DNA of 64,000 bases from Agrobacterium sp. RAC06. GTDB lineage: Bacteria; Pseudomonadota; Alphaproteobacteria; Rhizobiales; Rhizobiaceae. A program made the position numbers and the translations under genes. Shown piece by piece: positions 36,692-51,771 of this stretch. The stretch is from contig NZ_CP016499.1 in assembly GCF_001713475.1 (NCBI RefSeq), positions 3,422,001 to 3,486,000 on the forward strand. The letters are read 5' to 3'. The first letter of the stretch is position 1, and each line of letters begins with the position of its first letter. Below the pieces are notes generated by a model. That model made no database searches and was not told the origin of the DNA. It saw only the letters and a list, made by a program, of their open reading frames with translations.

Positions 36692-36709
36692 TGTGGAAAC
36701 GTTACCACA
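36692..36709. promoter_or_regulatory. LacI-family operator overlapping the transcription start
   Basis: TGTGGAAACGTTACCACA is palindromic except for one mismatched pair and has the central CG of LacI/GalR operators. It begins one base after the -10 box, so a bound repressor would block initiation. The LacI-type gene at 40444-41469, at the other end of this operon, is the obvious regulator. Confidence 0.75.
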
Positions 36710-36725
36710 TCGGGAGAAGATAACG

Positions 36726-37550
36726 ATGAAACAGGCGCGGTTGAACCGCCTCTTCGGCACGTCTGGAAACTGCTTCGACGTGGCCATCGATCACGGCATG
36801 TTCAATGAACGCACGTTTCTCGCCGGTATCGAGAACATGCGCAAAGCCATCGAGGTCATCGCTGCGGCAGGCCCTGACGCGATCCAGCTGCCGCCGGGTA
36901 CGGCGCCCATGCTGCAGTCGATCCCGGGCAAGGCTCGCCCAGCGCTCGTGCTGCGTACCGATATTGCCAACATCTATGGCAACCCGCTGCCGAGTGCTCT
37001 GTTCTCCGAGGTGATCGATCGTCCGGTCGAGCAGGCGATCGCGCTCGATGCCGCCTGTGTCGTGGTCAATCTGCTGATGCTGCCCAACCAGCCCGAGGTT
37101 TATCGGGCCTGCGTGCGCAACGTGAACAGCCTGAAGCGCGAATGCGAGATCTACGGCATGCCGCTGATGGTGGAGCCGCTGGTCATGCAGGACAATTCCA
37201 AGGGCGCCTACATGGTGGACGGCGCAATCGACAAGATCCTGCCGCTGGTCCGCCAGGCTGCCGAACTCGGCGCGGACATCATCAAGGCCGACCCCTGTGA
37301 CGACGTGGCAGAATACCATCGGGTGATCGAGATCGCTCAGGGGCTGCCGGTGCTCGTGCGCGGCGGGGGCAGGGTCTCCGATGAGGAAATTCTATCGCGT
37401 ACCAAGGTGCTGATGGATCAGGGAGCCCGCGGCATCGTCTACGGCCGCAATGTCATCCAGCATGCCAATCCGGGCGGCATGACGCGGGCGCTGATGGCGA
37501 TCGTGCATGACGGCGTAACGGCAGAGGAAGCGTCGCGCCATCTCGCCTGA
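36726..37550 (+). CDS. Class I (DhnA/FbaB-type) aldolase
   Basis: The 274-residue TIM-barrel protein resembles DhnA/LsrF/FbaB class I aldolases: N-terminal FDVAIDHGMF, Schiff-base lysine K187 in ADIIKADP, and phosphate-binding loops VLVRGGGRVSDEEIL and GIVYGRNVIQH. It would cleave (or thiolyse, as LsrF does) a ketose phosphate. The neighbouring PfkB kinase could supply a ketose 1-phosphate, giving dihydroxyacetone phosphate plus an aldehyde; this is inference. ATG 36726 follows GGGAGAAG. It is the first gene of a four-gene operon behind a LacI-type operator. Confidence 0.85.
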   Translation: MKQARLNRLFGTSGNCFDVAIDHGMFNERTFLAGIENMRKAIEVIAAAGPDAIQLPPGTAPMLQSIPGKARPALVLRTDIANIYGNPLPSALFSEVIDRPVEQAIALDAACVVVNLLMLPNQPEVYRACVRNVNSLKRECEIYGMPLMVEPLVMQDNSKGAYMVDGAIDKILPLVRQAAELGADIIKADPCDDVAEYHRVIEIAQGLPVLVRGGGRVSDEEILSRTKVLMDQGARGIVYGRNVIQHANPGGMTRALMAIVHDGVTAEEASRHLA

Positions 37551-37575
37551 GATTGCGTGACGGGAGGAGGACCCC

Positions 37576-38715
37576 ATGAAGACCTTTCGTTTCGGCGTCA
37601 TCGGCTGCGGCCTGATGGGCCGCGAATTTGCCAGCGCCGCTGCGCGCTGGATGCATCTGACCGACGCCAAGGCGAGGCCAGAGATCGTCGCCGTCTGTGA
37701 CACCAATACGGAGCTGATGGCGTGGTTCCAGACCCACGTTCCCTCCGTTCGACAGGCAACCACTGACTACCGCGAACTTCTCGCCAATCCGGAGGTCGAC
37801 GCCATCTACTGCGCCGTTCCGCATGTCCTGCACGCCGAGTTTTACACCGACATCATCAAGGCAGGAAAACATCTGCTGGGTGAAAAGCCCTTCGGGATGG
37901 ACCTGGCGCAGAACAGGGCGATCATGGCCGTTCTTGCCGAGCATCCGGAAAGCATCGTCCGCTGCTCATCGGAAATGCCTTTCTTCCCCGGCGCGCAGAA
38001 GGTCATTGCTATGGCGGCGAGTGGCGAGATGGGCGACATTCTCGAAGTCGAAGCCAGCTTTCTGCATTCTTCCGACATCGATCCCAACAAGCCGATCAAC
38101 TGGAAGCGCATGGAGCATGTCAACGGCGCCTATGGCTGCATGGGGGATCTGGGCATGCATGTGCTGCATGTTCCCTTGAGGCTTGGCTGGCGGCCGGAAA
38201 CGTTGCATGCCAACCTCGTCAAGCGGATCACCGAGCGGCCGGATGGCAAGGGCAACAGGGTACCCTGCACCACCTGGGACAATGCGACGATCAGCAGCCG
38301 CGTGCGCACCGCTGACCAGGATTTCCCTCTGGTTCTCAAGACATGGCGCATCGCACCGGGCGAATCCAACACCTGGTACATCCGCATCCTCGGCATGAAG
38401 AAGAGCGCCTTCTTCTCGACCAAGCAGCCGCGCCAGTGGCAGTGGATGGATTACCAGGGCAGCACCCAGTCCTGGAACACGGAAGACCTTGGCTATGGCT
38501 CTGTCTTCCCCGCCATCACAGGCAAGATCTTCGAATTCGGCTTCGCCGATGCGATCCAGCAAATGTGGGCGGCCTTCGTCGACGAATTGGCGGGTGGCAC
38601 TGCGAATGGCTTCCCCTGTGCAAGCCCCGCGGAAGCGGCTGCCCATCACGCCGTGCTGACGGCCGCGCTGCAATCCGGTCTGGAAAACCGGGTCGTTTCT
38701 GTCGACTACGATTGA
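37576..38715 (+). CDS. Gfo/Idh/MocA-family NAD(P)-dependent oxidoreductase
   Basis: The 379-residue protein has an N-terminal Rossmann fold (GVIGCGLMGREFA), the EKPFG motif in LLGEKPFGMD around residue 100, and an alpha/beta C-terminal domain. Family members oxidise sugars, inositols or sugar acids at a hydroxyl group. The exact substrate is unknown; the adjacent isomerase and kinase point to a pentose or hexose. It starts 26 bp after the aldolase with GGGAGGAGG before ATG and is followed after 9 bp by the isomerase gene. Confidence 0.88.
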   Translation: MKTFRFGVIGCGLMGREFASAAARWMHLTDAKARPEIVAVCDTNTELMAWFQTHVPSVRQATTDYRELLANPEVDAIYCAVPHVLHAEFYTDIIKAGKHLLGEKPFGMDLAQNRAIMAVLAEHPESIVRCSSEMPFFPGAQKVIAMAASGEMGDILEVEASFLHSSDIDPNKPINWKRMEHVNGAYGCMGDLGMHVLHVPLRLGWRPETLHANLVKRITERPDGKGNRVPCTTWDNATISSRVRTADQDFPLVLKTWRIAPGESNTWYIRILGMKKSAFFSTKQPRQWQWMDYQGSTQSWNTEDLGYGSVFPAITGKIFEFGFADAIQQMWAAFVDELAGGTANGFPCASPAEAAAHHAVLTAALQSGLENRVVSVDYD

Positions 38716-38724
38716 GGTGGGACC

Positions 38725-39396
38725 ATGCGACGCTCCGAGATCAACGAAGCCCTGCGGTTTGCCATCGGGATGCTCGAGACCTGGCGCTGGTCCCTGCCTG
38801 TCTGGGGGCAATGGGGCGCTGCCGACTTTGCAGCCCATCCCGAGGCCTCGCGCTATCTGGCCAGCCGACAGCTCGGCTGGGACGTTACCGACTTTGGCTC
38901 CGGCCGCTTTGTCGAGCAGGGGCTCGTGCTCTTTTGCCTGCGCAACGGCATCCTCGGCATGGAGGGCGAGCGCAGCTATGCGGAGAAGCTGCTCTTCATC
39001 CAGGAAGGCCAGTTGACCCCGGCCCATCTGCACAAGGCGAAGCAGGAAGACATCATCAACCGGGCGGGTGGCGATCTCGTCATCGAATTCTGTGCGGCTG
39101 ATGCGACGGGCAAGGTCACCGAATCCGAGGTCTCTGTCCTTGTCGACGGGATCGAGCAGCGTCTCCAGACCTGGGAGCCTCTTGTCCTGCATGCTGGCCA
39201 GAGCGTAACGATCCCTACGGGTCTCTATCACCGCTTCTATGGCGCGAAGGGCAAGGGCCCGGTGCTGGTCGGCGAAGTCAGTCAGGTTAACGACGACAGG
39301 ACCGACAACTATTTCCTCGAACCCATCGGCCGTTTCGCCGAGATCGAGGAGGATGAGCCGCCGCTGAGACCCCTCTGGAACGAGGGGACTGTCTGA
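38725..39396 (+). CDS. D-lyxose ketol-isomerase family protein
   Basis: The 223-residue protein matches the cupin-type D-lyxose isomerase family (Lyx_isomer, formerly DUF1498). The metal-binding pattern is visible as PAHLHKAKQEDIINRAGG (His-x-His plus downstream Glu/Asp) with a later histidine in GLYHRFYG. Such enzymes interconvert D-lyxose and D-xylulose, and often D-mannose and D-fructose. It would feed a ketose to the adjacent PfkB kinase. Its stop overlaps the kinase start (TGATG). Confidence 0.85.
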   Translation: MRRSEINEALRFAIGMLETWRWSLPVWGQWGAADFAAHPEASRYLASRQLGWDVTDFGSGRFVEQGLVLFCLRNGILGMEGERSYAEKLLFIQEGQLTPAHLHKAKQEDIINRAGGDLVIEFCAADATGKVTESEVSVLVDGIEQRLQTWEPLVLHAGQSVTIPTGLYHRFYGAKGKGPVLVGEVSQVNDDRTDNYFLEPIGRFAEIEEDEPPLRPLWNEGTV

Positions 39397-40433
39397 TGAG
39401 AGCCGGGGAGGAGGTTCAAATCAGACAAGACACCGGAACGGCTGGTGGCATCGTCTGCGTCGGCAACTTTATCGTCGATCGCATCCACACTTTGTCCTAC
39501 TGGCCGGAACAGGGCAGTCTCGCGCATATTTTGCACCAGGACATGGGCGTCGGCGGCGGTGCGGCCAATGTGGTGACCGACCTTGCTTCGCTTGGGTTCA
39601 AGGGACGACTTTCGGTGGCGGGTGCGGTGGGGAACGATCGGGACGGCGCCTATGTCCGGGATCGTCACGCGGCCCTCGGTATCGATGTTGCCGGTCTCCG
39701 TGTTCTTGATGGCCAGGCGACTGCACATACCCATGTCATGAACGTGCCCGGCCAAAGCCGCACCTTCTTCTATCACGGCGGCTCCAACGACCTGCTGACG
39801 GACGATCTCATCGACCCTGCCGCCTTTGCAGCCAGTGGGCACAGGATCTTCTATCTTGGCTATCTCATGCTCCTGCCGGCTCTCGACCGGAAGGATGCAA
39901 GCGGCTCTTCCGGGGCGGCGCGGCTTTTGAAGGCGGCACGCGAAGCGGGGCTGACGACTTGCGTCGATTTCGTCTCCAGCGAGGACCCTGCCTTTGCCGA
40001 TCAGGTCGCCGTTGCACTACCCCATTGCGATTATGTGATCGTCAACGAGACCGAAGCCGGACGCGCAACGGGTGTGGCCGTCCGCGACAAGTCGGGCACT
40101 CTGCTGCTGTCAGCTGTGGAAGAGGCTGGTCAGCGGCTTCTGGACGGCGGGGTGGCGCAAGGCGTCGTCATTCATGCGCCGGAGCTCTCCATCTGGCTTT
40201 CACCCGACAAGGCCCCGGTTATCACGCCTGCACTTGCCGTCGATCCGGCCGCCATCGTCAGCCCCGTCGGGGCCGGAGATGCCTTCTGCGCGGCGGTGCT
40301 CTACGGTTTGCACGAGGGCTGGCCGATCGAGACCATTTCGGCTGTTGCCCATCGCGCGGCGGTCCATTGTCTCGGCGGCGCGACTGCTACCGACGGCATA
40401 CCCGACATGTCGATCCTGCTCGCCGAAATCTGA
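39396..40433 (+). CDS. PfkB-family carbohydrate kinase
   Basis: The 345-residue protein shows PfkB/ribokinase signatures: N-terminal GNFIVD, GGGAANVV in the substrate region, and SPVGAGDAFCAAV near the C-terminus with the catalytic aspartate. It would phosphorylate a sugar made by the lyxose-isomerase-like protein, giving a substrate for the class I aldolase at the start of the operon. It ends 10 bp from the convergent LacI-type regulator gene. Confidence 0.9.
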   Translation: MRAGEEVQIRQDTGTAGGIVCVGNFIVDRIHTLSYWPEQGSLAHILHQDMGVGGGAANVVTDLASLGFKGRLSVAGAVGNDRDGAYVRDRHAALGIDVAGLRVLDGQATAHTHVMNVPGQSRTFFYHGGSNDLLTDDLIDPAAFAASGHRIFYLGYLMLLPALDRKDASGSSGAARLLKAAREAGLTTCVDFVSSEDPAFADQVAVALPHCDYVIVNETEAGRATGVAVRDKSGTLLLSAVEEAGQRLLDGGVAQGVVIHAPELSIWLSPDKAPVITPALAVDPAAIVSPVGAGDAFCAAVLYGLHEGWPIETISAVAHRAAVHCLGGATATDGIPDMSILLAEI

Positions 40434-40443
40434 ACGACTGCAA

Positions 40444-41469
40444 TCAGATGTCTGCAGGGGCCGGCCCGGTCGATTCCCGGATGACCAGATCAACGGGCAT
40501 GCGCGTGAGCGAGGCGGGCCGGCGTTCCAGATCCTGCCTGTGGTCCTGCAGGCGCTCTTCGAGCCTGCGGGTCGCTTCGAGTGCGACCGCGCGGATCGGC
40601 TGGGCCACCGTTGTCAGCCGCGGCAGGACATAGGCTGCCTCCGGCAGGTCGTCGAAGCCGATGACAGAGCAATCGTCCGGCACGATGCGGCCGCTGTCGC
40701 GAACGGCGTGGATCGCTGCTATGGCCGCGATGTCCGTCGTTCCGATGATCGCGGTGATGTCGGTGTGATCTTGCAGAACGGACTGCGCCAGCGCGTAGGT
40801 GGCGGCGAAGCTGTGATCCTCGCCGATTGCTTCGATGGCCGGTGCAAGTCCATGTTCGCGCAGCACGGCCCGAATGCCTTCCATGCGAAGCCGGATCGGC
40901 TGGCTGTGTCCCGGCGCCCCGACGACCGCGATCTTCTGATGGCCGAGATCCACAAGGTGCCGGGTCATCATGCGTCCGCCTTCGACATGATCGGCCATCA
41001 CGGTATCGTCCGATATGCCGACGAGTTCGCGGTCGATCGCGATCACCGGGATCCCGGAACCGACCAGCGGCTGGAGATGCGCCGTGCCGCCATAGGCGCT
41101 GGCGACAATGACACCTTCGACCCTTTGGGCCCGCAGCATCGCGACATAGCGGGCCTCGTGCTCTTCGTTTTCCGCTGAACTGCAAATCAGGGTGTGGTAG
41201 CCGCGTTCGAAGAGTTCGCGCTCGATGGTATTTGCAAGAATGCCGAAGAAGGGGACATCGATGGAGGGCAGCATCAGGCCGATCATCCGGCTCGCTTCGC
41301 CGCGCAGCATGCGAGCGCCCTTGCTGGGCGCATAGTTGAGGTCCCTGATCGCGGCTTCCACGCGCTGGCGCACCTCTGGCGAGACATAACCACTGTTGTT
41401 CAGGACGCGCGAGACTGATGATACCGACGTTTCGGCAACCTTCGCGATCGTCCTGATACTGGCAGCCAT
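40444..41469 (-). CDS. LacI-family transcriptional repressor of the sugar operon
   Basis: The 341-residue protein has an N-terminal LacI helix-turn-helix (TIAKVAETSVSSVSRVLNNSGYV) with hinge helix, then a periplasmic-binding-protein-like ligand domain (GLMLPSIDVPFFG, TRHLVDLGHQKIAVVG, DDLPEAAYVLPRLTTV). It is convergent with the four-gene sugar operon, whose promoter carries a TGTGG-AAACGTTA-CCACA operator, so it probably represses that operon and is induced by its sugar or an intermediate. Confidence 0.9.
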   Translation of the reverse strand: MAASIRTIAKVAETSVSSVSRVLNNSGYVSPEVRQRVEAAIRDLNYAPSKGARMLRGEASRMIGLMLPSIDVPFFGILANTIERELFERGYHTLICSSAENEEHEARYVAMLRAQRVEGVIVASAYGGTAHLQPLVGSGIPVIAIDRELVGISDDTVMADHVEGGRMMTRHLVDLGHQKIAVVGAPGHSQPIRLRMEGIRAVLREHGLAPAIEAIGEDHSFAATYALAQSVLQDHTDITAIIGTTDIAAIAAIHAVRDSGRIVPDDCSVIGFDDLPEAAYVLPRLTTVAQPIRAVALEATRRLEERLQDHRQDLERRPASLTRMPVDLVIRESTGPAPADI

Positions 41470-41792
41470 TCCGGTATTCCCGCATCCGTTATGGTGATCG
41501 GAGTACGCAGAATTGCGGGCCCCGGCAAGTCGCGATTGTATCGTCGGCCAAGACTACCAGAGAGGGGCGCTCGCCTCGTCTTCGAGTATGGTGTCTCTCC
41601 AGCTATTGCTTGGGGGCCGCACCGGTGTCTCAAAGAGCGTTTGCCTGATCATTCCCTTCCGGCCGTATCTGTCATGCTACGTCGTCCCTTTGCTTTGCAA
41701 AGAGAGGCGCATTTTACTTAAGATTCACGATAATTCCGAACGTTCGCTTGCCGTTAATCTGCCTTTCGTGGCTGTTTGGTAGGGATCGGTGC
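41470..41792. other. Divergent intergenic region before the Dlt-like cassette
   Basis: About 320 bp between the minus-strand LacI-type gene and the GNAT gene. It holds a perfect palindrome CGAACGTTCG (41737-41746) and an AT-rich stretch at about 41700-41735. The palindrome is 47 bp before the GNAT start and may be an operator. No gene is supported here. Confidence 0.5.
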
Positions 41793-42968
41793 ATGGTTAT
41801 TGCAAGCGATCCACGTCTGACTGAGGCAGGCCACGCCGATGCGGGGGCAGAAACGTCGTTCGTCGTCGAGGCCGTGACGGAAGCCTTCTTCCAGTCCGCC
41901 GACTATGCGGCCCTGCATGCGCGCTCGAATGCGTCGGCTTTCCAGCATCCGCTCTGGCTCCAGGCTTTCCACCGTCATCTTGCCCCGTCGCGGGGCGCGC
42001 AAGGCGTGACGCTCGTGGGACGGCCGGGACCCGGCAAGCCTCCGTGTTTCGTTCTGCCGATGATAGCCCGGAAGCTCTCCGGCGTGACGATCCTTGAAAG
42101 TGCGGATCTCGGCGTCAGTGACTACGCGGCGCCGCTGGTTGATCCTGACTGGTGGGAGCGACAGCATGATCATGCTGCGGTTCGCGCCTGTGTTGCCGCT
42201 GCCTTTCCATCACATGACATCTTGCGGGTGAAGCCGATCCGCGATGAGCATCTGGCCCTCTGGCAGGCGTTCCTGCCGGGAAGCACGAAGACACTTGGAT
42301 TTTCCGCCCATGCCACTTCGCTCGTAGCGTCGGTAGAGCATTGGCGAGAGCAGGCGCTGACCGACAGTTTCGCACGCTATCTTGCCCGCAAACGCAAGCG
42401 CTTCTTCAAGATGGAAGGGGCACGGCTTGTTGTCGTTCAGGGAGCGCAGGCGATCGCCCGCGCGATGGAGCGGCTGGCTCAGCTGCGCGAGGGCCGTTTC
42501 GAGCAGGACGTGATTGCCGCGCCCGCAGCGCGAGCCTTCTACAGCGCCGTTGCGCAATCCGGGGAGCAGGCAGGTTTTGCCCGCGTCTATGCGCTCGAAC
42601 TGGGCGGCGAGGCGATCGGTTATACCTTCTGTCTCGCGTTTGGCGGACGGCTCCACTACCTGCTGATCGGCTGCGATTACCAGACCCATGGGCGCCATTC
42701 GCCGGGTTTGCTGCTCTATGATGGGATGATCGGCGACTGGATCGAGACCGGTGGCGAGATCTTCGACTTCACCATTGGCGATGAGCCCTTCAAGGCAGAT
42801 TTCGGCACGGTGGCCACCCCCCTTCATGTGTTGACGCATACGCCGACCGTGCGCGGCGCATTGGCGCTGGCCGCGATGCGTTGGCGCGAGCGGTGGCGCG
42901 AGGCTTCGGCCGCCACAACCACGACACCGTTTGCCCGCCGCCAGACATCCGGGGAGGACAATGGATGA
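41793..42968 (+). CDS. CelD/BcsL-like GNAT acyltransferase
   Basis: The 391-residue protein is of the FemAB/CelD-like GNAT group (Acetyltransf_6), recognised by FDFTIGDEPFKADFG near residue 330 and the preceding acyl-CoA-fold segment LELGGEAIGYTFCLAFGGRLHYLLIGCD. Such proteins transfer acyl or aminoacyl groups to cell-surface glycans or lipids. ATG 41793 has TAGGGATCGG upstream. It is the first of five tightly linked genes and overlaps the PIG-L gene by ATGA, so the two enzymes probably act on the same surface molecule. The acyl donor is unknown. Confidence 0.82.
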   Translation: MVIASDPRLTEAGHADAGAETSFVVEAVTEAFFQSADYAALHARSNASAFQHPLWLQAFHRHLAPSRGAQGVTLVGRPGPGKPPCFVLPMIARKLSGVTILESADLGVSDYAAPLVDPDWWERQHDHAAVRACVAAAFPSHDILRVKPIRDEHLALWQAFLPGSTKTLGFSAHATSLVASVEHWREQALTDSFARYLARKRKRFFKMEGARLVVVQGAQAIARAMERLAQLREGRFEQDVIAAPAARAFYSAVAQSGEQAGFARVYALELGGEAIGYTFCLAFGGRLHYLLIGCDYQTHGRHSPGLLLYDGMIGDWIETGGEIFDFTIGDEPFKADFGTVATPLHVLTHTPTVRGALALAAMRWRERWREASAATTTTPFARRQTSGEDNG

Positions 42969-43852
42969 ACGCGCGCCCAGCATTCCTCGAGAATTCGGTC
43001 ATTGTTGCAGCGCATCCGGACGATGAACTGCTGTGGTTCAATGCGATTTTGCATGAGGTCGACGAGGTGATCGTCGTCTACAGGGATTTCTGGGCCCAGC
43101 CGGGGCTCGGCGAAAAGCGAGCTGCCGCTCTCGCCGATTTTCCCCGCGCGGGCGTCAGCTGTCTGAATATCGCGGAATCCGGTGCGGCTGGCTGCGCAAA
43201 TTGGGATGACCCGCGAGAAAGCCCGGATGGTCTCGTCCTCAGCTTCGAAAGCCAGCGACGGGAACTGACGCGCATGTCGCGCCTCGCGCTTGGCAAGGTC
43301 GGCATGGGTGAGCGGCGCGTGGCCGAATATAGTGTTCTGACGGCCTATCAGAACAACTTCGTGAAGATACAAACCTTGCTGCGGGAGCGCCTGCGTCCGG
43401 GCATGAACGTCTTCACACACAATCCCTGGGGCGAATACGGACATGAGGAACATGTCCAGCTCTTCCGCGTGCTCCAAGGGCTGAGGGATGAGATTGGCTT
43501 CAATCTCTGGATGTCGAATTATTGCACCAATCGGTCACTGCCTCTGGCGATGCGATACTTCCAGACATCTCCCGGACAGCCGATCCGTCTGCCGACCAAC
43601 AAGGCATTCGCGGAAGAGGTGGCCTCTGTCTACAAGAGGCATGATTGCTGGACCTGGGCGGACGATTGGCAATGGTTCGATGACGAGTGGTATCTGCCGG
43701 CACCCCGTCAGGGCGCGACGCCACAGCCACATCAGCACCTGTTTCCGCTCAATCTTTTCACCATCGATGTCGCGCAGAAGCGACCCTGGCTCTCGATGGC
43801 CGTCGGCTCGGCTGCGGCGGCCTCGGCGCTCATGGTTGCCGCCGACTTCTAG
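42965..43852 (+). CDS. PIG-L family deacetylase
   Basis: The 295-residue protein starts with VIVAAHPDDELLWF, the zinc-binding AHPDDE motif of the PIG-L/LmbE family, and carries a second metal/catalytic element in NPWGEYGHEEH (about residue 160). Family members remove N-acetyl groups from GlcNAc-containing glycolipids, mycothiol-type conjugates or antibiotic precursors. Beside a GNAT acyltransferase and a Dlt-like esterification set, the likely role is to unmask an amino group on a glycan or glycolipid; this is inference. The N-terminus shows no signal peptide. Confidence 0.82.
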   Translation: MNARPAFLENSVIVAAHPDDELLWFNAILHEVDEVIVVYRDFWAQPGLGEKRAAALADFPRAGVSCLNIAESGAAGCANWDDPRESPDGLVLSFESQRRELTRMSRLALGKVGMGERRVAEYSVLTAYQNNFVKIQTLLRERLRPGMNVFTHNPWGEYGHEEHVQLFRVLQGLRDEIGFNLWMSNYCTNRSLPLAMRYFQTSPGQPIRLPTNKAFAEEVASVYKRHDCWTWADDWQWFDDEWYLPAPRQGATPQPHQHLFPLNLFTIDVAQKRPWLSMAVGSAAAASALMVAADF

Positions 43853-43932
43853 CTGTGCGCGGACGGGTAACGATCAACGCCGGCAGAACAACAAACGTCA
43901 GTGACACGGGCTTAATCTTGAACGGTGTTCCA

Positions 43933-45501
43933 GTGCAAACAACGCATGAAAACTTCAACATCGCCGCACCCTTCTGGCAAGGCGCGCATGCTCATCCCGG
44001 TGCGACTGCCCTGGTCGTTGCGCGGCGCGAGTTTACCTATGAGGCCCTCGCGCAAAAGGTTGCGCGCCTCGCCGGCCATCTGGCGCCGCGTTTGAAGCAA
44101 CGGCGCGTCGGGATTTTCGCCACCCGAAGCCTCGAGGGTTATGTCGGCATACTCGGCGCCTGCATGGCGGGTGCGACCTATGTGCCGCTTAACCAGAAAT
44201 GGCCGCCGGAGCGGCTGGTCACGCTGCTGGGGCTGCTCGAGCTCGATGCGCTGATCGTCGATCGCAATGGGATCGGCCTTCTGACGCCGGAGGTCCTGGC
44301 TGCCGCGCCCGCCATCATCATCGGACCGGAGCAGGCCGATATGCCGGCAACGGCGGATGCCGCGATCACGCCGCTCGACGCCCTGACTGACCCGCCGCTT
44401 GGCGAACCCGCGATAGTGGGGCCGGATCATGAGGCCTATATCATCTTCACCTCCGGCACGACCGGGCTTCCCAAGGGCGTGGTGATCTCGGCCGCTTCTC
44501 TTGCGTCCTATCTGGTGCAGGCGCGCCCATGGACGACGCTTGGGAAAGAAGACCGGGTCGCCGAAGCGCATGACCTTACCTTCGACCTCAGTGTCCACAA
44601 TCTGTTCCTGACACTGGAATCGGGCGCCGCACTGCATGTGATGTCGGCGCTTGAGCTATCGGCACCGCAGCATTTCATTCGCAGCCATGGCATCACGGCC
44701 TGGATGTCGGTGCCGACGATCGTCAACATGATGCGTACGGCGGGTTCACTGAAGCCCGGACTGTTCGAGACGATTCGCCTGTCGGTCTTTTGCGGTGAGC
44801 CGCTGCCGGGCATGACGGTCGAGGCCTGGAAGGTTGCCGCGCCAAACAGCGCCGTCGAGAATATCTATGGGCCAACGGAATGCACCGTCGTCATGCTCAG
44901 GCAAAGCGTGGGTGCCGAGATGCCGCTGACGCCAGGGCGCGGGGTGGTGGCGATTGGAACCCCCTTCAGCGACGGCAAGATCGCCATCCTCGGTCCTGAC
45001 CTGCAGCCGGTGGCCCCGGGTATGCCGGGAGAAATCGCGCTGGGCGGGCCGCAAGTCGGTATTGGTTATTTTGCGTCGCCGGAACAGACGGCGGACCGTT
45101 TCCGCGACATGAATGGTGAGCGCTGGTACCTGACGGGGGACCTCGGCCTGTGCGATGCCGAGGGCATCTACCACCATCTTGGCCGGACGGATAACCAGGT
45201 CAAGGTCAAGGGTAACCGGATCGAGCTGGAAGAGGTCGAGGCGCATCTGCGGCTGGCGGCGGACAGCACGGTCGTTGCGGTGGTGGCCTGGCCCCATGTC
45301 GATGGCGCTGCCACCGGGCTGGTCGGATTCGTCGCCGGCAGTGATGAAACGGCTGCATCGATCCAGGCGAAGATGTTGCGGTCGCTGCCGCGCTACATGG
45401 TTCCGGAAGCCATTCATCTCCAGGATACGCTACCCGTCAACATCAACGGCAAGGTGGATCGGCGCGCATTGCGTGACTTCCTCGAAGGGGGCGCGTCTTG
45501 A
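43933..45501 (+). CDS. DltA-like amino-acid adenylating enzyme
   Basis: This AMP-forming ligase (522 aa from GTG 43933) has the P-loop FTSGTTGLPKG, NIYGPTE, YLTGDLG, the GRTDNQVKVKG hinge and catalytic K507 in NINGKVDRRAL. It resembles D-alanine:carrier ligase DltA more than a free NRPS module. The two DltA pocket landmarks are kept: D218 in TFDLSVHN (the amino-group-binding Asp) and C287 in VFCGEPLP (the Cys linked to D-Ala selectivity). It probably activates a small amino acid and loads it on the ACP encoded at 46989. The start is uncertain: TTG 43918 is another option and neither has a strong ribosome-binding site. Confidence 0.8.
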   Translation: MQTTHENFNIAAPFWQGAHAHPGATALVVARREFTYEALAQKVARLAGHLAPRLKQRRVGIFATRSLEGYVGILGACMAGATYVPLNQKWPPERLVTLLGLLELDALIVDRNGIGLLTPEVLAAAPAIIIGPEQADMPATADAAITPLDALTDPPLGEPAIVGPDHEAYIIFTSGTTGLPKGVVISAASLASYLVQARPWTTLGKEDRVAEAHDLTFDLSVHNLFLTLESGAALHVMSALELSAPQHFIRSHGITAWMSVPTIVNMMRTAGSLKPGLFETIRLSVFCGEPLPGMTVEAWKVAAPNSAVENIYGPTECTVVMLRQSVGAEMPLTPGRGVVAIGTPFSDGKIAILGPDLQPVAPGMPGEIALGGPQVGIGYFASPEQTADRFRDMNGERWYLTGDLGLCDAEGIYHHLGRTDNQVKVKGNRIELEEVEAHLRLAADSTVVAVVAWPHVDGAATGLVGFVAGSDETAASIQAKMLRSLPRYMVPEAIHLQDTLPVNINGKVDRRALRDFLEGGAS

Positions 45502-46982
45502 GCATCGTTTTCGAGCAAGAGCCGCTTCGCCCGCTCAGCCGCCTCATGCAGTGGCGGCGTGCCTGGTTGACGATCGACGCCAATCCAGCGGCGCGCAACT
45601 TTGCCGGGACCATCCGCGGGCTGCTTCTGATACACGGGCTTTTCCTCGCGGCTCTTGCCGTGAGCCTGCAGATCAGTCTGTCGGCACTTGCACTGATCGG
45701 ATTGACCCTTCTTGCTGCCGCGCGCTGGCCAGAGCGCCGGCTCACCATTCTGATCACGTCGAGCCTGGTCTTCCTGTTGCTCCGGCCCTTCCGAACCGCT
45801 GACATGAACACGCTTGTCGTCGACTTGGCTGCGGCGGTCGGGAACGGCGTGTCCGTGCCTCCGCTCGCCCTCCAGGTGTTCGGTGTCGTCCTTTTCCTCG
45901 GTTTTGCGCAGCTCATGATCGCAGGCCAGCGCATGAGCAGCGGCATCTGGTCCCGCCGTCCTGTGTTGGTGCAGCTTGTCGGCTTCCTCGCGGTGCTTGC
46001 TGTTGCCGCCTTCGTGCCACCGGGGGACTACGGGCATGCCATGCTCTGGGCTTTCCTCGCTGTCTGGGCATCCTGCTTCTGGTTTCTCGCCTATGCGGCT
46101 GTCGACCTGAAGGCCAAGGCTGCAGCACCGGACGGTGTGCGGGCGCTCTACATGCGTCCGGTCTGGGGCGGTGACGTCGCGCCGTTCGGCAAGGGCCTGT
46201 CCTTCCTCAAGCGCTTCGAAGCAAAGGATGACGACGCCCTGGCGGTGACGCGTCTGAAGGCACTGAAACTCGCCGTCTGGACGGCCATTCTCAGCTGGAC
46301 TGCGCTTGCGGCCACGACACTGTTTCATGAGATGCTGGGTGTGCCGAAACTCGGCTTCATGATCCTCAATCCGCAGGATACTGCGGCCATGCCCCTTGGC
46401 CTGCAATGGGCAGGTTTGATCGTCAACTACGGTGTGGATCTGCTGATCATTGCGGCCTGGGGCCATGCGATTGTCGCCGTGGCGCGGATGATGGGTTACA
46501 ATATTCCGCGCAACACCGTGAACCCGCTGGCATCCCGCTCGATCGCCGAGTTCTGGAACCGCTACTACTATTACTTCAAAGAGGTTCTGGTCGATTTCTT
46601 CTTCTATCCGGCCTTCATGCGCTGGTTCAAGACATCGCCACGCCTGCGGATCGCGTTCGCGACCTTCTGTGCGGCCGGGTTCGGCAATTTCCTCTACCAT
46701 CTGATCTTCGTCTCCCATGTCTTCGCAGATGGGACGCCGTTCGACGAACTCGATCGTTTTGCAACGCTGGCCTTTTATGTCGGTCTGCTCTCGGCGGGCC
46801 TGATCATCTCGCAGATCTGGGGCCGCAAGACCTCGTCGGCGGATGGCTTCTGGCGTCACGATGTTCTGCCCCGGATCAATGTGGCGCTGTTCTTCTGCTT
46901 TCTGAAAATCTTCGACAGTGTGTGGCTCGAAGGCCAGCTGTCGGATCGCTTCCACTTTCTGTTTGGCCTGTTTGGAGTTTGA
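45498..46982 (+). CDS. MBOAT-like membrane acyltransferase (DltB-like role)
   Basis: The 494-residue protein has about ten membrane helices. The segment EFWNRYYYYFKEVLVDFFFYP (from residue ~351) matches the MBOAT 'FWRRWH-SL---LRDYLY-P' motif. The following NFLYHLIFVSH contains H401 and H407 in the region where MBOAT proteins have their catalytic histidine, though without the usual WHG. Start TTG 45498 overlaps the ligase stop (TTGA), showing translational coupling. Its position between an adenylating enzyme and a carrier protein parallels DltA-DltB-DltC, so it probably moves the activated acyl group across or onto a membrane-side acceptor. Confidence 0.72.
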   Translation: MSIVFEQEPLRPLSRLMQWRRAWLTIDANPAARNFAGTIRGLLLIHGLFLAALAVSLQISLSALALIGLTLLAAARWPERRLTILITSSLVFLLLRPFRTADMNTLVVDLAAAVGNGVSVPPLALQVFGVVLFLGFAQLMIAGQRMSSGIWSRRPVLVQLVGFLAVLAVAAFVPPGDYGHAMLWAFLAVWASCFWFLAYAAVDLKAKAAAPDGVRALYMRPVWGGDVAPFGKGLSFLKRFEAKDDDALAVTRLKALKLAVWTAILSWTALAATTLFHEMLGVPKLGFMILNPQDTAAMPLGLQWAGLIVNYGVDLLIIAAWGHAIVAVARMMGYNIPRNTVNPLASRSIAEFWNRYYYYFKEVLVDFFFYPAFMRWFKTSPRLRIAFATFCAAGFGNFLYHLIFVSHVFADGTPFDELDRFATLAFYVGLLSAGLIISQIWGRKTSSADGFWRHDVLPRINVALFFCFLKIFDSVWLEGQLSDRFHFLFGLFGV

Positions 46983-46988
46983 CCTGCC

Positions 46989-47240
46989 ATGACCGTCGAC
47001 AAGATTGCATCCATCCGTGCTCGTGTTCAGGGACTGCTCGAAGAGCGCGGCGACAGGCAGCCGCTTCTGGATACGGATTCGCTCTTCTTCAGCGGACGGC
47101 TGGATTCGCTCGCGGCCACGCATTTGATGATGCTGCTCGAGGAGACTTTCGGGATCGATCTGGCTGCTGCCGATTTCGACGTGACCCGTCTCGACAGTCT
47201 CGCCGAGATCGAAGCCTTTGTCAGCGAGACGCAAGGATAA
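46989..47240 (+). CDS. Acyl/aminoacyl carrier protein (DltC-like)
   Basis: The 83-residue protein is an acyl carrier protein: four-helix pattern and the phosphopantetheine site S40 in RLDSLAATH. The LDSL context, rather than the DSL-M of fatty-acid ACPs, is common in DltC and stand-alone peptidyl carriers. It starts 6 bp after the MBOAT-like gene and is the probable partner of the DltA-like ligase encoded upstream. It is the last gene of the five-gene cassette. Confidence 0.85.
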   Translation: MTVDKIASIRARVQGLLEERGDRQPLLDTDSLFFSGRLDSLAATHLMMLLEETFGIDLAAADFDVTRLDSLAEIEAFVSETQG

Positions 47241-47359
47241 GGCTTCACGGCGGATCAGATTTCCCGGCAATCCACGTCGTCGTGTTGCGTCAGGACGGCG
47301 CTCTGCATAGGTCCGTTCCGTCTTCAAGGAAGTGCTTGTATCGATCTCCGCAGTGGCCT

Positions 47360-47375
47360 AGTAAATATTTTCCTG
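47360..47375. promoter_or_regulatory. LacR-operator-like motif upstream of lacR
   Basis: AGTAAATATTTTCCTG matches 14 of 16 bases of AGTAAAAATTTTCTTG in front of lacE (48551-48566). A further inverted TTTACT lies at 47379-47384. It lies 49 bp before the lacR start, so it may mediate autoregulation. Confidence 0.5.
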
Positions 47376-47423
47376 AGGTTTACTGGTTTCCTTGGGAAAC
47401 AGGTGGAGGAGGGACAGGCCGCC

Positions 47424-48494
47424 GTGGTGACGATCAAGGAAATCGCGAAGGCCGTCGGCGTTTCGTCGGGGACCGTCTCCCGTGTCTTGAACTACGACCA
47501 GACGCTGTCGGTCTCCGAGGCCAAGCGGCAGGCGATCATCGAAACGGCCGAAGCGCTGAACTATGCGACGCCACGCGCGCGCAAGAGCGCCCATCTTCCT
47601 CCGCTCAATATTCCGATGGCCAGCCATGCGGACGTGTCGGCGCATGTCGCCATCGTTCACTTCCTGGCGCCGCAGGAGGAGCTGGTCGATCCCTATTATG
47701 TCGGTGTGCGGCTCGGCATCGAGGCCCGCTGCCGCGAGTACAAGATCGAGATCGCACGGGTGTTCAATCCCGATGTGCCCGTCGATCTTGCGCTGTTGAC
47801 GGGTATCTCCGCAGCGATCGTGGTCGGGCATCATCCCAAGGCAGAGATCGAGGCGATGGCCAAGGTCTGTCCGCATCTGATCATGGCCGACTACAATCCG
47901 CGCATGCCGCAATTCGACTGCGTTCGCGCTGATCTGGGCGAGGCGACGACAACTATCCTCGACAGTCTGGAACAGGCGGGATATCGCCGAATCGGCTTTG
48001 TCGGCGGCTACGAGCTGATGGACAATGATGCGCTGATGCATGGGGAGCAGCGCTGCAAGGCCTTCATCGAATGGCACGAGGCGCGCGGGAGCTACCAGCC
48101 CGAGCTCATGGCGCTTGGCCAGAGCGAGCGCTTCGGACAGAACCTCCGGCTGGAGACCGGTTACCAGCAGGCGAAATCGCTGCTCGCACTCGATACGCCC
48201 CCCGATGCCATCGTTGCGGCGAACGACAATATGGCGATCGGTACCTACAGGGCCATCCAGGAGGCCGGGATGTCCATACCTGATGATGTCGCGGTGGTGG
48301 CCTTCAACGACATTCCTGTTGCGCAATTTCTTAACCCGCCGCTGTCGACCATGCGCATTCCCGGCGAGCTGATCGGCGAAGTGGCTGTCGACCTGCTTGT
48401 CGAGCGGCTGAACGGGCGCGACTATTCCAAGCATGTTACCCTGCCGACCGAAATGGTCTGGCGCGGCAGTGCGAGAAAGCCTGTGCGCACTTAA
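47424..48494 (+). CDS. lacR: LacI-family regulator of the lactose operon
   Basis: The 356-residue protein has a LacI helix-turn-helix (TIKEIAKAVGVSSGTVSRVLNY) and a sugar-binding core (AIVVGHHPKAEIEAMA, GYRRIGFVGGYE, DAIVAANDNMAIG, VAFNDIPVAQFLNPPLSTMRI). GTG 47424 is preferred because GGAGGAGGG (47405-47413) lies upstream; a GTG at 47403 would lack one. It precedes lacE in the order known for the lac clusters of Agrobacterium radiobacter and Sinorhizobium meliloti, and a shared motif lies before both lacR and lacE. It is expected to repress lactose genes until lactose or a derivative is present. Confidence 0.8.
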   Translation: MVTIKEIAKAVGVSSGTVSRVLNYDQTLSVSEAKRQAIIETAEALNYATPRARKSAHLPPLNIPMASHADVSAHVAIVHFLAPQEELVDPYYVGVRLGIEARCREYKIEIARVFNPDVPVDLALLTGISAAIVVGHHPKAEIEAMAKVCPHLIMADYNPRMPQFDCVRADLGEATTTILDSLEQAGYRRIGFVGGYELMDNDALMHGEQRCKAFIEWHEARGSYQPELMALGQSERFGQNLRLETGYQQAKSLLALDTPPDAIVAANDNMAIGTYRAIQEAGMSIPDDVAVVAFNDIPVAQFLNPPLSTMRIPGELIGEVAVDLLVERLNGRDYSKHVTLPTEMVWRGSARKPVRT

Positions 48495-48541
48495 GTCTTC
48501 GTGGAAAGGTTGTGAGATCCTCGTGACTTACCGCAGCGCAC

Positions 48542-48562
48542 AAAATATTTAGTAAAAATTTT
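48542..48562. promoter_or_regulatory. 21-bp dyad, candidate LacR operator before lacE
   Basis: The site is palindromic around position 48552 except for the central base and one mismatched pair: AAAATATTTA mirrors TAAAAATTTT. The right half matches the motif upstream of lacR. It lies 86 bp before the lacE start in an AT-rich promoter region. Confidence 0.6.
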
Positions 48563-48647
48563 CTTGGCTGTCTTCCGATTTTGAGGAATAGTCACCGCGA
48601 GGCAGGGGATGGAGCTGCCGCGTTCAACGATACAGTGGGAGGAAGAC

Positions 48648-49916
48648 ATGGACTATTCTCGCGCCTTCAAGCGCTCGATTTCGGCCACCGTTGCTGGCGC
48701 CGCACTTCTCTGCAGCACCGCCGCCTTTGCCGGTGAAGTCACCATCTGGTGCTGGGACCCGAACTTCAACGTCGCCATCATGAAGGAAGCGGCGGCGCGC
48801 TATACCGCCAAGAACCCTGACACGACCTTCAACATCGTCGACTTCGCCAAGGCCGATGTCGAGCAGAAGCTGCAGACGGGTCTGGCCTCCGGCATGACTG
48901 ACACGCTGCCGGATATCGTGCTGATTGAAGATTATGGCGCGCAGAAATATCTGCAGTCCTTCCCCGGCTCCTTTGCCGCGCTGACTGACAAGATCGACTA
49001 TTCCGGCTTTGCCAAATACAAGGTCGACCTGATGACGCTCGAAGGCCAGGTCTATGGCGTTCCCTTCGATTCCGGCGTGACCGGCCTTTACTATCGCACT
49101 GATTATCTTGAGCAGGCCGGCTACAAGGCCTCCGATATGGAGAACCTGACCTGGGACCGCTTCATCGAGATCGGCAAGGACGTGAAGGCCAAGACCGGCC
49201 ATGAGATGATGGCGCTCGACTCGAATGACGGCGGCCTGATCCGCATCATGATGCAGTCTGGCGGCCAGTGGTATTTCAACGAGGACGGCAGCCTCAACAT
49301 CACCGGCAATGCTGCGCTGAAGGCCGCACTCGAAACCCAGGCCCGCATCGTCAACGAAGGCGTTGCCAAGCCAACCAGCGGCTGGAATGACGGCATCAGC
49401 GCTCTGACTTCGGGCGATGTGGCCTCGGTTCTGATGGGCGTCTGGATTACCGGCACCGTCAAGTCGCAGGCCGACCAGGCCGGCAAGTGGGCGCTGACCG
49501 CCATTCCGAAACTCAACATCGAGGGTGCGACGGCTGCGTCGAACCTTGGCGGTTCGAGCTGGTATGTGCTGGAAGCCTCCGCCGAGAAGGATGAGGCGAT
49601 CGACTTCCTCAATGAGATCTATGCCAAGGACCTCGATTTCTACCAGAAGATCCTGACCGAACGTGGCGCCGTGGGCTCGCTGCTTGCTGCCCGCACCGGT
49701 GAAGCCTATCAAAAGCCCGACGAGTTCTTCGGCGGCCAGACGGTCTGGCAGAACTTTGCCGATTGGCTCGTGCAGGTACCTGCCGTCAACTACGGCATTT
49801 TCACCAACGAGCTCGATACGGCTGTCACGGCCAATTTCCCGGCGCTCTTGAAGGGCACACCGGTGGATGAGGTCTTGAAGGCGATCGAAGATCAGGCTGC
49901 CACTCAGATCCAGTAA
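48648..49916 (+). CDS. lacE: Lactose ABC transporter substrate-binding protein
   Basis: The 422-residue protein belongs to solute-binding family 1 (sugars). A signal peptide is clear (AFKRSISATVAGAALL core, cleavage after AAFA before GEVT). The segments YGVPFDSGVTGLYYR and NLGGSSWYVLEASAEKD are typical of disaccharide-binding proteins. ATG 48648 has GGGAGGAAGAC upstream. The downstream order of two permeases, a GH2 beta-galactosidase and an ATPase is that of rhizobial lacEFGZK, so lactose is the likely ligand. It is followed by a hairpin before lacF. Confidence 0.85.
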   Translation: MDYSRAFKRSISATVAGAALLCSTAAFAGEVTIWCWDPNFNVAIMKEAAARYTAKNPDTTFNIVDFAKADVEQKLQTGLASGMTDTLPDIVLIEDYGAQKYLQSFPGSFAALTDKIDYSGFAKYKVDLMTLEGQVYGVPFDSGVTGLYYRTDYLEQAGYKASDMENLTWDRFIEIGKDVKAKTGHEMMALDSNDGGLIRIMMQSGGQWYFNEDGSLNITGNAALKAALETQARIVNEGVAKPTSGWNDGISALTSGDVASVLMGVWITGTVKSQADQAGKWALTAIPKLNIEGATAASNLGGSSWYVLEASAEKDEAIDFLNEIYAKDLDFYQKILTERGAVGSLLAARTGEAYQKPDEFFGGQTVWQNFADWLVQVPAVNYGIFTNELDTAVTANFPALLKGTPVDEVLKAIEDQAATQIQ

Positions 49917-49925
49917 ACCCATCCC

Positions 49926-49958
49926 ACAGGGGCGTCTTCCCAAGGATTACGCCCCTGT
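49926..49958 (+). other. Stem-loop between lacE and lacF
   Basis: Perfect 10-bp arms ACAGGGGCGT (49926-49935) and ACGCCCCTGT (49949-49958) enclose a 13-base loop, 9 bp after the lacE stop. No T-tract follows. A stem of this kind can protect the upstream lacE message or attenuate transcription into lacF. Confidence 0.7.
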
Positions 49959-50047
49959 CCTCCCGGAGACGTGCGGCGGCAACGCCGCGCGCCTTCCCTT
50001 TGCATAACATGGTTCAGTGACCACTGATCGGGTTCGGGGATAACCGC

Positions 50048-50944
50048 ATGGCGACCACATCCAGATCCAGTTTGAAGCGCTATTACGACGTCAACGGATG
50101 GCTGTTCGTGGCGCCCGCCATCGCGCTGATCTCGCTCTTCATGCTCTATCCGATTGCCCGCTCGCTCGTTCTCTCCCTGTATTCGGGACGCGGAATGATG
50201 CTGAAGTTCTCAGGCACGGGTAACCTCGTGCGTCTCTGGAACGATCCCGTCTTCTGGCAGGCGCTGCAAAACACCGTCATTTTCTTCATCATTCAGGTGC
50301 CGATCATGATCACCATGGCACTGATCCTGGCGGCCATGCTGAACAATCCGAAACTGCGCTTTTCCGGCCTCTTCCGGACGATGATCTTCCTGCCCTGTGT
50401 TGCCTCGCTGGTGGCCTATTCCATCCTGTTCAAGAGCATGTTTTCGCTCGACGGCGTGGTGAACAACACGCTGCTTACGATCGGCATCATCGGCGAGCCG
50501 ATCGGCTGGCTGACCGATCCCTTCTGGGCCAAGGTGCTGATCATCATCGCCATTACCTGGCGCTGGACCGGCTACAACATGATTTTCTATCTGGCGGCGC
50601 TGCAGAATATCGATCGCTCGCTCTATGAGGCGGCGAAGATCGACGGCGTGCCGTCCTGGGGGCGTTTCGCCTTCCTGACCATTCCGATGTTGAAGCCGGT
50701 GATCCTGTTCACCACGATCACCTCGACGATTGGCACGCTACAGCTCTTCGACGAGGTCTATAACTTCACCGAAGGCACGGGCGGGCCGGCGAATTCGACG
50801 CTGACCTTGTCACTCTACATCTACAATCTGACCTTCCGCTTCATGCCGAGCTTCGGTTATGCGGCAACCGTCTCCTATGTCATCGTGCTGATGGTGGCGG
50901 TTCTCTCCTTCCTGCAATTCTATGCCGCGAGGGAACGTCGATGA
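50048..50944 (+). CDS. lacF: Lactose ABC transporter permease (LacF/MalF type)
   Basis: The 298-residue permease has six membrane helices and the MalF-type EAA loop YEAAKIDGVPSWGRFAFLTIPML. The N-terminal KRYYDVNGWLFVAPAIALI is typical of sugar permeases of the CUT1 group. It overlaps lacG by 4 bp (ATGA). It forms the membrane channel with LacG for lactose delivered by LacE. Confidence 0.88.
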   Translation: MATTSRSSLKRYYDVNGWLFVAPAIALISLFMLYPIARSLVLSLYSGRGMMLKFSGTGNLVRLWNDPVFWQALQNTVIFFIIQVPIMITMALILAAMLNNPKLRFSGLFRTMIFLPCVASLVAYSILFKSMFSLDGVVNNTLLTIGIIGEPIGWLTDPFWAKVLIIIAITWRWTGYNMIFYLAALQNIDRSLYEAAKIDGVPSWGRFAFLTIPMLKPVILFTTITSTIGTLQLFDEVYNFTEGTGGPANSTLTLSLYIYNLTFRFMPSFGYAATVSYVIVLMVAVLSFLQFYAARERR

Positions 50945-51762
50945 TGACAACGCTTCGCCGCCGCCTGCCTGATATCGTGCAGTATGCCGTGCTGTCGCTT
51001 GCCGCCTTCCTCTCGATCTTTCCGTTCATCTGGATGGTGATCGGCGCGACCAATACGACAAGCCAGATCATCCGCGGGAAGGTTACCTTCGGCACGGCGC
51101 TCTTCGACAACATCGCGTCCTTCTTCGCGCAGGTGGATGTGCCGCTGGTGTTCTGGAATTCGGTGAAGATCGCGCTTGTGGGAACGGCGCTCACGCTGCT
51201 CGTCTCTTCGCTTGCCGGCTATGGTTTCGAGATGTTCCGCTCGAAGCTCCGCGAGCGCGTCTATACCGTGATCCTGCTGACGCTGATGGTGCCGTTCGCG
51301 GCTCTGATGATCCCGCTCTTCATGCTGATGGGGCAGGCGGGGCTTCTGAATACCCATATCGCCATCATGCTGCCGATGATCGCGTCTGCCTTCATCATCT
51401 TCTATTTCCGCCAGGCCTCGAAGGCCTTCCCGACCGAGCTTCGCGATGCGGCCAAGGTCGACGGGCTGAAGGAGTGGCAGATCTTCTTCTACATCTATGT
51501 GCCGGTGATGCGCTCCACCTATGCGGCGGCCTTCGTCATCGTTTTCATGCTGAACTGGAACAATTATCTCTGGCCGCTGATCGTGCTGCAGTCGAACGAT
51601 ACCAAGACGATCACGCTTGTCGTGTCCTCGCTCGCTTCTGCCTATTCGCCCGAATACGGCACCGTGATGATCGGCACGATCCTCGCCACCCTTCCCACTC
51701 TTCTCGTTTTCTTCGCCATGCAACGCCAATTCGTGCAGGGCATGCTCGGCTCCGTGAAATAG
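50941..51762 (+). CDS. lacG: Lactose ABC transporter permease (LacG/MalG type)
   Basis: The 273-residue permease has six helices, the MalG-type EAA loop ELRDAAKVDGLKEWQIFFYIYVPVM and the terminal family segment FVQGMLGSVK. It is the second permease of the lactose importer, overlapping lacF and ending 9 bp before lacZ. Confidence 0.9.
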   Translation: MMTTLRRRLPDIVQYAVLSLAAFLSIFPFIWMVIGATNTTSQIIRGKVTFGTALFDNIASFFAQVDVPLVFWNSVKIALVGTALTLLVSSLAGYGFEMFRSKLRERVYTVILLTLMVPFAALMIPLFMLMGQAGLLNTHIAIMLPMIASAFIIFYFRQASKAFPTELRDAAKVDGLKEWQIFFYIYVPVMRSTYAAAFVIVFMLNWNNYLWPLIVLQSNDTKTITLVVSSLASAYSPEYGTVMIGTILATLPTLLVFFAMQRQFVQGMLGSVK

Positions 51763-51771
51763 GACTTTGAA

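Follow-up and report, generated by a model that had tools for sequence, protein, structure and literature searches.

What might an amino-acid-type ligase, a phosphopantetheine carrier and a membrane protein of the MBOAT superfamily do together in a Gram-negative alphaproteobacterium? The question is raised by five genes of Agrobacterium sp. RAC06 (genome of 4.96 Mb, two contigs), located in a stretch of 64,000 nucleotides (contig NZ_CP016499.1, positions 3,422,001 to 3,486,000; hereafter the window, whose numbering is used throughout). Two carrier-based routes of envelope aminoacylation are described in the accessible parts of the sources, Dlt (PMC12148441) and Alm (PMC12930378). The five genes are read here as an envelope aminoacylation cassette that combines amino acid loading, direct transfer by the MBOAT protein and tailoring of the acceptor by a PIG-L and a GNAT protein, a reading given a probability of about 0.58. 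Its probable function is to attach a small amino acid to a lipid or glycan of the envelope, along a route that matches neither Dlt nor Alm. A first-pass annotation of the window had proposed a Dlt-like pathway, and its interpretation is partly supported. The features are:

41793..42968, plus strand: GNAT protein (Acetyltransf_6), 391 amino acids; ATG at 41793, stop at 42966-42968; PF13480 match at 2.2e-27
42965..43852, plus strand: predicted PIG-L/LmbE-type deacetylase, 295 amino acids; ATG at 42965, stop at 43850-43852; AHPDDE and GHEEH motifs
43933..45501, plus strand: ligase with an adenylation domain (AlmE/DltA type), 522 amino acids; GTG at 43933, stop at 45499-45501; alternative start TTG at 43918
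45498..46982, plus strand: MBOAT-superfamily membrane protein of an unnamed subfamily, 494 amino acids; TTG at 45498, stop at 46980-46982
46989..47240, plus strand: phosphopantetheine carrier protein, 83 amino acids; ATG at 46989, stop at 47238-47240; Ser40 in DSL; PF00550 match at 9.2e-8
41711..47330, no strand assigned: cassette block, approximate extent, from comparison of its flanks with congeners

All five open reading frames lie on the plus strand, from 41793 to 47240. The GNAT and PIG-L genes overlap in ATGA and the ligase and MBOAT genes in TTGA; the carrier gene starts 6 bp 3′ of the MBOAT stop, and the gap between PIG-L and ligase is 80 bp (GTG 43933) or 65 bp (TTG 43918). The coordinates, overlaps and gaps (6 bp and about 80 bp) of the first-pass annotation are all borne out, and D218 and C287 of the ligase (numbered from the GTG start) and S40 of the carrier sit where it had placed them. 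Its protein assignments also hold: for GNAT, ligase and carrier through a Pfam scan (Acetyltransf_6, 2e-27; AMP-binding, 2e-68; PP-binding, 9e-8), and for the PIG-L and MBOAT proteins through profile comparison and structure models. Judged by the loci compared, the tight packing is not due to chance, because the order ligase-MBOAT-carrier recurs on one strand at 22 of 27 loci, the window included.

These loci comprise 25 from a survey of Rhizobiaceae and 2 more from a survey of the order. An earlier set of loci shares genomes with them, and the counts use only the 27-locus set with the window; the home-made gene caller used for contexts overlooks some genes, and the triad counts rest on a separate recount. 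Full-length MBOAT relatives occur in 22 of 394 Rhizobiaceae genomes, 3 of 397 genomes drawn from the order and 6 of 60 genomes of the genus (the last two counts include the host itself). The five remaining loci consist of one rearranged triad, one MBOAT-carrier pair without ligase and three GNAT-MBOAT arrangements. At genome level the exceptions among the 22 are G355, with no ligase beside MBOAT, and G218, with a rearranged triad; the three GNAT-MBOAT genomes each hold a second, ordinary triad elsewhere. A carrier relative lies 3′ of the MBOAT gene on the same strand at 23 of the 27 loci. The surroundings vary, each Pfam family being found in at most 4 of 91 neighbour proteins, and no conserved neighbour pointing to an acceptor was found among those 91 (scanned from 112 listed genes, the 21 omitted being mostly short or doubtful reading frames together with PIG-L and GNAT of locus L151).

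The full five-gene set is present in the window, at L001-L004, in G778 (a stretch collinear with the window, 93% over 14.5 kb) and, in another family of the order, at L151, where the order is the same and identities are 53% for GNAT, 68% for PIG-L, 67% for the ligase and 65% for the carrier. The five-gene neighbourhood of the first-pass annotation does recur, but on these comparisons the conserved basic unit is the ligase-MBOAT-carrier triad, and GNAT-PIG-L is a pair separate from it. The candidate of five genes as one conserved basic unit was rejected on the same grounds. As far as the flanks tell, the cassette behaves as a discrete block, because in six congeners that lack a full-length MBOAT but retain the LacI gene downstream, similarity beside that gene starts only at 47323-47421. 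The cassette-bearing congener L272 matches the window from 41711 to 49633.

The ligase is, by its sequence, of the amino-acid adenylation type. It scores 308 bits against the NCBIfam amino acid adenylation model TIGR01733, just below the cutoff of 317, and 241 bits against the DltA equivalog model (cutoff 560), which leaves it outside DltA. D218 lies within FDLSVHN and C287 within FCGEP, and the two match the DltA residues responsible for binding the amino group of D-alanine and for selecting the enantiomer, as given in the available part of the source (PMC4176424). The nine-position pocket code is DLHMVCIVV; codes taken from alignments read DLHLFCLIA for AlmE and DLMTMCTVA for DltA. The D-L-H pattern with C301, as in AlmE, is found in 21 of the 23 ligases at the 27 loci (for example DLHMICIVV, DLHLLCIIA and DLHLWCFVA), and DLHLLCIIA agrees with AlmE at 7 of 9 positions and with DltA at 4. 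When the pocket region is searched alone, AlmE (4oxi) ranks first (7e-25, 90 bits), and three other ligases stand between it and DltA (3e7w; 2e-11, 47 bits). AlmE handles glycine and can mis-activate D-alanine, according to the accessible portion of its source (PMC12930378). Because the pocket region is closer to AlmE, which handles glycine, than to DltA, glycine is favoured over D-alanine as the predicted substrate, alanine being possible.

The membrane protein has no match in the Pfam scan, and none of 46 family members matches a Pfam MBOAT-family model at E 0.1. Profile comparison and a structure model support an MBOAT fold, with DltB as the nearest solved structure; since the predicted fold is MBOAT, the missing match suggests a limit of the Pfam model. 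The single sequence finds DltB weakly among PDB sequences (E 2e-4) and scores 26 bits against NCBIfam DltB (cutoff 375). The profile comparison pairs H401 with the WHG-motif His, which is the catalytic one in MBOATs, and 45 of the 46 relatives keep a His there. The motif FWNRYxxYxKE is invariant in this branch, and Y356 and Y359 are two invariant predicted active-site tyrosines. All 16 complete canonical MBOATs taken from related genomes carry the C-terminal FxYxxF hexapeptide, which ends none of the 46 cassette-type relatives. The family numbers at least 318 proteins; of 120 listed entries, all that carry a source name are labelled "hypothetical protein". The nearest named locus found is that of Rhizobium sp. 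RU33A (MBOAT 97% identical).

In the accessible text on Alm, AlmE-AlmF-AlmG puts glycine on lipid A (PMC12930378). Cassette and Alm have in common a stand-alone amino-acid ligase with a separate carrier, as well as H239 and C301, and AlmE is the best pocket-region match; they differ in the transferase, whose MBOAT fold sets it apart from AlmG. AlmG is an LpxL-type lipid A acyltransferase, of another fold than MBOAT. GNAT and PIG-L proteins are not known to be part of alm. The MBOAT-SGNH O-acetylases (PatA-PatB, AlgI type) share the superfamily and the aligned catalytic His; according to the consulted part of the source (PMC12148441), their acyl donor is acetyl-CoA (shown for PatA), and they work with an SGNH partner and an FxYxxF shuttle. 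No SGNH partner was found in the cassette (Pfam) or among the 25 of 145 families listed for the 91 neighbours, other SGNH families of the genome not having been searched. In Dlt, DltA-DltB-DltC-DltD-DltX puts D-alanine on teichoic acids, according to the same partial source (PMC12148441). Ligase, carrier and MBOAT occur in both, whereas the cassette has other MBOAT motifs, a pocket nearer AlmE and a Gram-negative host, and the DltD and DltX models find no match in the host genome (controls positive).

A Gram-negative Dlt system is an unlikely explanation. The loaded residue would then be D-alanine, which the MBOAT would hand to an SGNH protein encoded at an unlinked site for transfer to a polyol-phosphate or glycan. 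This explanation can draw on DltB as nearest structure, on the DltA-like D218 and C287 (PMC4176424, accessible part) and on a DltA code that agrees at 4 of 9 positions, equal to AlmE, but DltD and DltX are not found, the FxYxxF end is missing from all 46 relatives, the DltA and DltB scores fall far under curated cutoffs, and the pocket region ranks DltA below AlmE and three other ligases. A plain Dlt orthologue was rejected on these scores and absences. The Dlt-like reading of the first-pass annotation thus stands for ligase, carrier and MBOAT, and not for a complete Dlt system. Its amino-acid-type adenylation with D218 and C287 in a Gram-negative setting is supported, and so is the MBOAT fold by the comparison with DltB that it had suggested; its DltA-type pocket keeps both residues while lying nearer AlmE, with glycine favoured.

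The preferred reading, an envelope aminoacylation cassette distinct from Dlt and Alm, is supported by the triad order kept at 22 loci in varied neighbourhoods; the pocket, with its amino-acid-binding Asp and DltA-type Cys and an AlmE-like D-L-H/C301 in most relatives; and the MBOAT fold with its conserved His, together with the unmatched DltD and DltX models. In a first step the ligase would adenylate a small amino acid, most likely glycine to judge from family and pocket, and attach it to the carrier through the phosphopantetheine arm on Ser40, as in AlmE/AlmF or DltA/DltC. In a second step the carrier would deliver the aminoacyl group to the MBOAT on the cytoplasmic side, and the MBOAT would, via H401, transfer it directly to a membrane-borne acceptor, with neither a DltX-DltD nor an FxYxxF-SGNH relay; here fold and His are supported, and the reaction is predicted.

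The Pfam match of PIG-L (1e-4, 22.9 bits) lies under its cutoff of 28.2; profile comparison and model give an LmbE fold with both the HPDDE and HxxH parts of the metal site, the C-terminal helix being modelled at low confidence. Fold and zinc-site motifs are common to the LmbE/PIG-L deacetylases (teicoplanin Orf2, MshB, BshB), and the sequence is remote (9-20% identity in structural alignments). PDB sequence searches with PIG-L and with GNAT gave no match. Of the 33 sampled Rhizobiaceae genomes in which both GNAT and PIG-L have strong matches, 32 have the two as neighbours on one strand. Co-occurrence was counted on strong matches only, with genome and genus lists compiled by hand. It leaves out 18 of 40 genomes with short matches to the MBOAT alignment profile A1 (19-33 bits; canonical MBOATs where read), the PIG-L matches of G219 and G237, whose best E lies between 1e-24 and 1e-26, and GNAT matches scoring under 370 bits, among them the split genes of G066 and G082. 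On this basis GNAT-PIG-L and MBOAT co-occur above expectation: PIG-L is present in 11 of 22 full-length-MBOAT genomes versus 34 of 372 others (p 3.6e-6), and at genus level p is 6e-4 (kinship ignored).

This co-occurrence, the five-gene locus L151 and the GNAT beside MBOAT in three genomes with a separate triad suggest that pair and triad work together, encoded in a single operon in this host and at separate loci in other genomes. In a third step, the weakest and drawn from family names and co-occurrence, PIG-L would expose an amine on a lipid, or a lipid-linked glycan, that contains an amino sugar, and GNAT would modify the molecule so deacetylated. This order, PIG-L before GNAT, is also that of the first-pass annotation and is putative.

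Alternatively, the GNAT could be the enzyme that uses the carrier-bound group: acting as a FemAB-like or N-acyl transferase, it would join an amino acid by an amide bond to an amino sugar or lipid precursor in the cytoplasm, with the MBOAT acting later on the product. This is improbable. GNAT lies directly 5′ of MBOAT in three genomes, but no GNAT lies within 3.5 kb of 20 of 22 triads. In Pseudochrobactrum plasmids (L153 6995-9724, L154) a ligase of nearly identical code (DLHMICIVI) and a carrier stand with a GNAT-like protein of 282 amino acids in the place of the MBOAT, although this protein shows no detectable relation to the window GNAT (hhalign probability 1.9%). The plasmid collection yielded no MBOAT of this family, the Pseudochrobactrum chromosomes not having been searched. 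The third protein has no Pfam or NCBIfam match and appears GNAT-like by eye, one 26%-identical plasmid relative being annotated as acyl-CoA acyltransferase; an AlmG-like identity was not borne out. A distant relative accompanies carrier and ligase in a Shinella plasmid polysaccharide cluster (L249 5998-9924). Because both loci pair carrier and ligase with a GNAT-like protein, the loaded amino acid may reach glycans via different transferases.

Several points weigh against the preferred reading of the cassette. Both its amino acid and its acceptor are putative. The window code agrees with AlmE at 4 of 9 exact positions, as it does with DltA, and over the whole length nonribosomal peptide synthetase domains rank first, with AlmE above DltA (for the relative at L144, two further stand-alone domains also outrank AlmE). 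The ligase substrate may vary between loci, because the codes at L142 and L152 (2 of 23 ligases) are quite different; pocket codes of triads from other phyla likewise differ. MBOAT profile A1 finds no match among PDB sequences. The loaded carrier may have outlets besides the MBOAT, because the Pseudochrobactrum ligase and carrier adjoin a GNAT-like protein with no MBOAT beside them. The co-occurrence statistic ignores kinship, and the GNAT match of G012, one of the three GNAT-MBOAT genomes, carries stop codons. By strong matches GNAT is missing from 10 and PIG-L from 11 of the 22 MBOAT genomes; therefore loading and transfer could not, on these counts, need the pair's step in general.

A more specific version is held only tentatively. 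It posits a third route, with an SGNH-free MBOAT branch (FWNRYxxYxKE) that would accept glycine from a carrier resembling AlmF and pass it on in a single step, possibly via Y356 or Y359, to a lipid of the membrane or an amino sugar linked to lipid, and with GNAT-PIG-L as dedicated acceptor-tailoring partner. An AlmE-like loading pair with an apparently shuttle-less MBOAT would join parts of known kinds in a combination not found described: titles and abstract openings of the papers listed, from a literature set with most subscription journals outside its coverage, give no Gram-negative ligase-MBOAT-carrier triad without SGNH, and a Leptospira paper, in its accessible part, names DltB proteins only, with no AlmE content. 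If the reading is true, a carrier-fed MBOAT would complete the reaction alone, without shuttle peptide and SGNH enzyme, beyond the current MBOAT-SGNH model. It would also suggest how amino acids might come to be attached to surface lipids or glycans of rhizobia; the family is spread over many Rhizobiaceae. Cell-surface aminoacylation alters charge and can alter cationic peptide resistance, as established for Dlt.

That the product is a small secreted metabolite or signal instead of an envelope modification is very unlikely: natural-product clusters also contain adenylation domains, carriers and acyltransferases, and cassette presence and upstream flank differ between congeners, but there is a single ligase and carrier with an MBOAT, no condensation or thioesterase domain in the cassette (Pfam, NCBIfam) and, among the 91 triad-neighbour proteins, at most 3 of any one exporter family.

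One-carbon genes lie near several of these loci. The Pseudochrobactrum loci adjoin a formate-tetrahydrofolate ligase and an ATP-binding cassette transporter; a DAO-GCV_T fusion lies beside the MBOAT-carrier locus L006, and an 85-amino-acid fragment of its cluster precedes triad L007. A longer DAO-GCV_T relative, of orthology not established, occurs in 13 of the 32 loci selected for GNAT-PIG-L contexts (three of which yielded no called gene). Such neighbours fit glycine but may be old synteny, and are not used as proof. The GNAT-PIG-L loci near the fusion (L218-L229, L240) include some with a GbdR-like regulator, a DprE1-like oxidase, an ArnF-like flippase subunit or a class III aminotransferase.

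Around the cassette itself, sugar-utilisation genes lie on both sides (36693-41469 and 47403-54015), each with a LacI-type regulator, and the upstream flank varies among congeners. The Shinella cluster also contains an AMP-binding enzyme and a type III pyridoxal phosphate enzyme, with an aspartate/glutamate racemase family gene nearby. A Solidesulfovibrio plasmid (L155 5992-8583) carries an adenylation-domain ligase, a carrier and a 241-amino-acid protein without family match. Many members of a distant MBOAT clade (L031-L054, Accumulibacter and others) adjoin ligases without the amino-acid Asp, and the clade was excluded from the argument; their neighbours include a phosphoenolpyruvate mutase family protein and sulfatase/EptA-like membrane enzymes.

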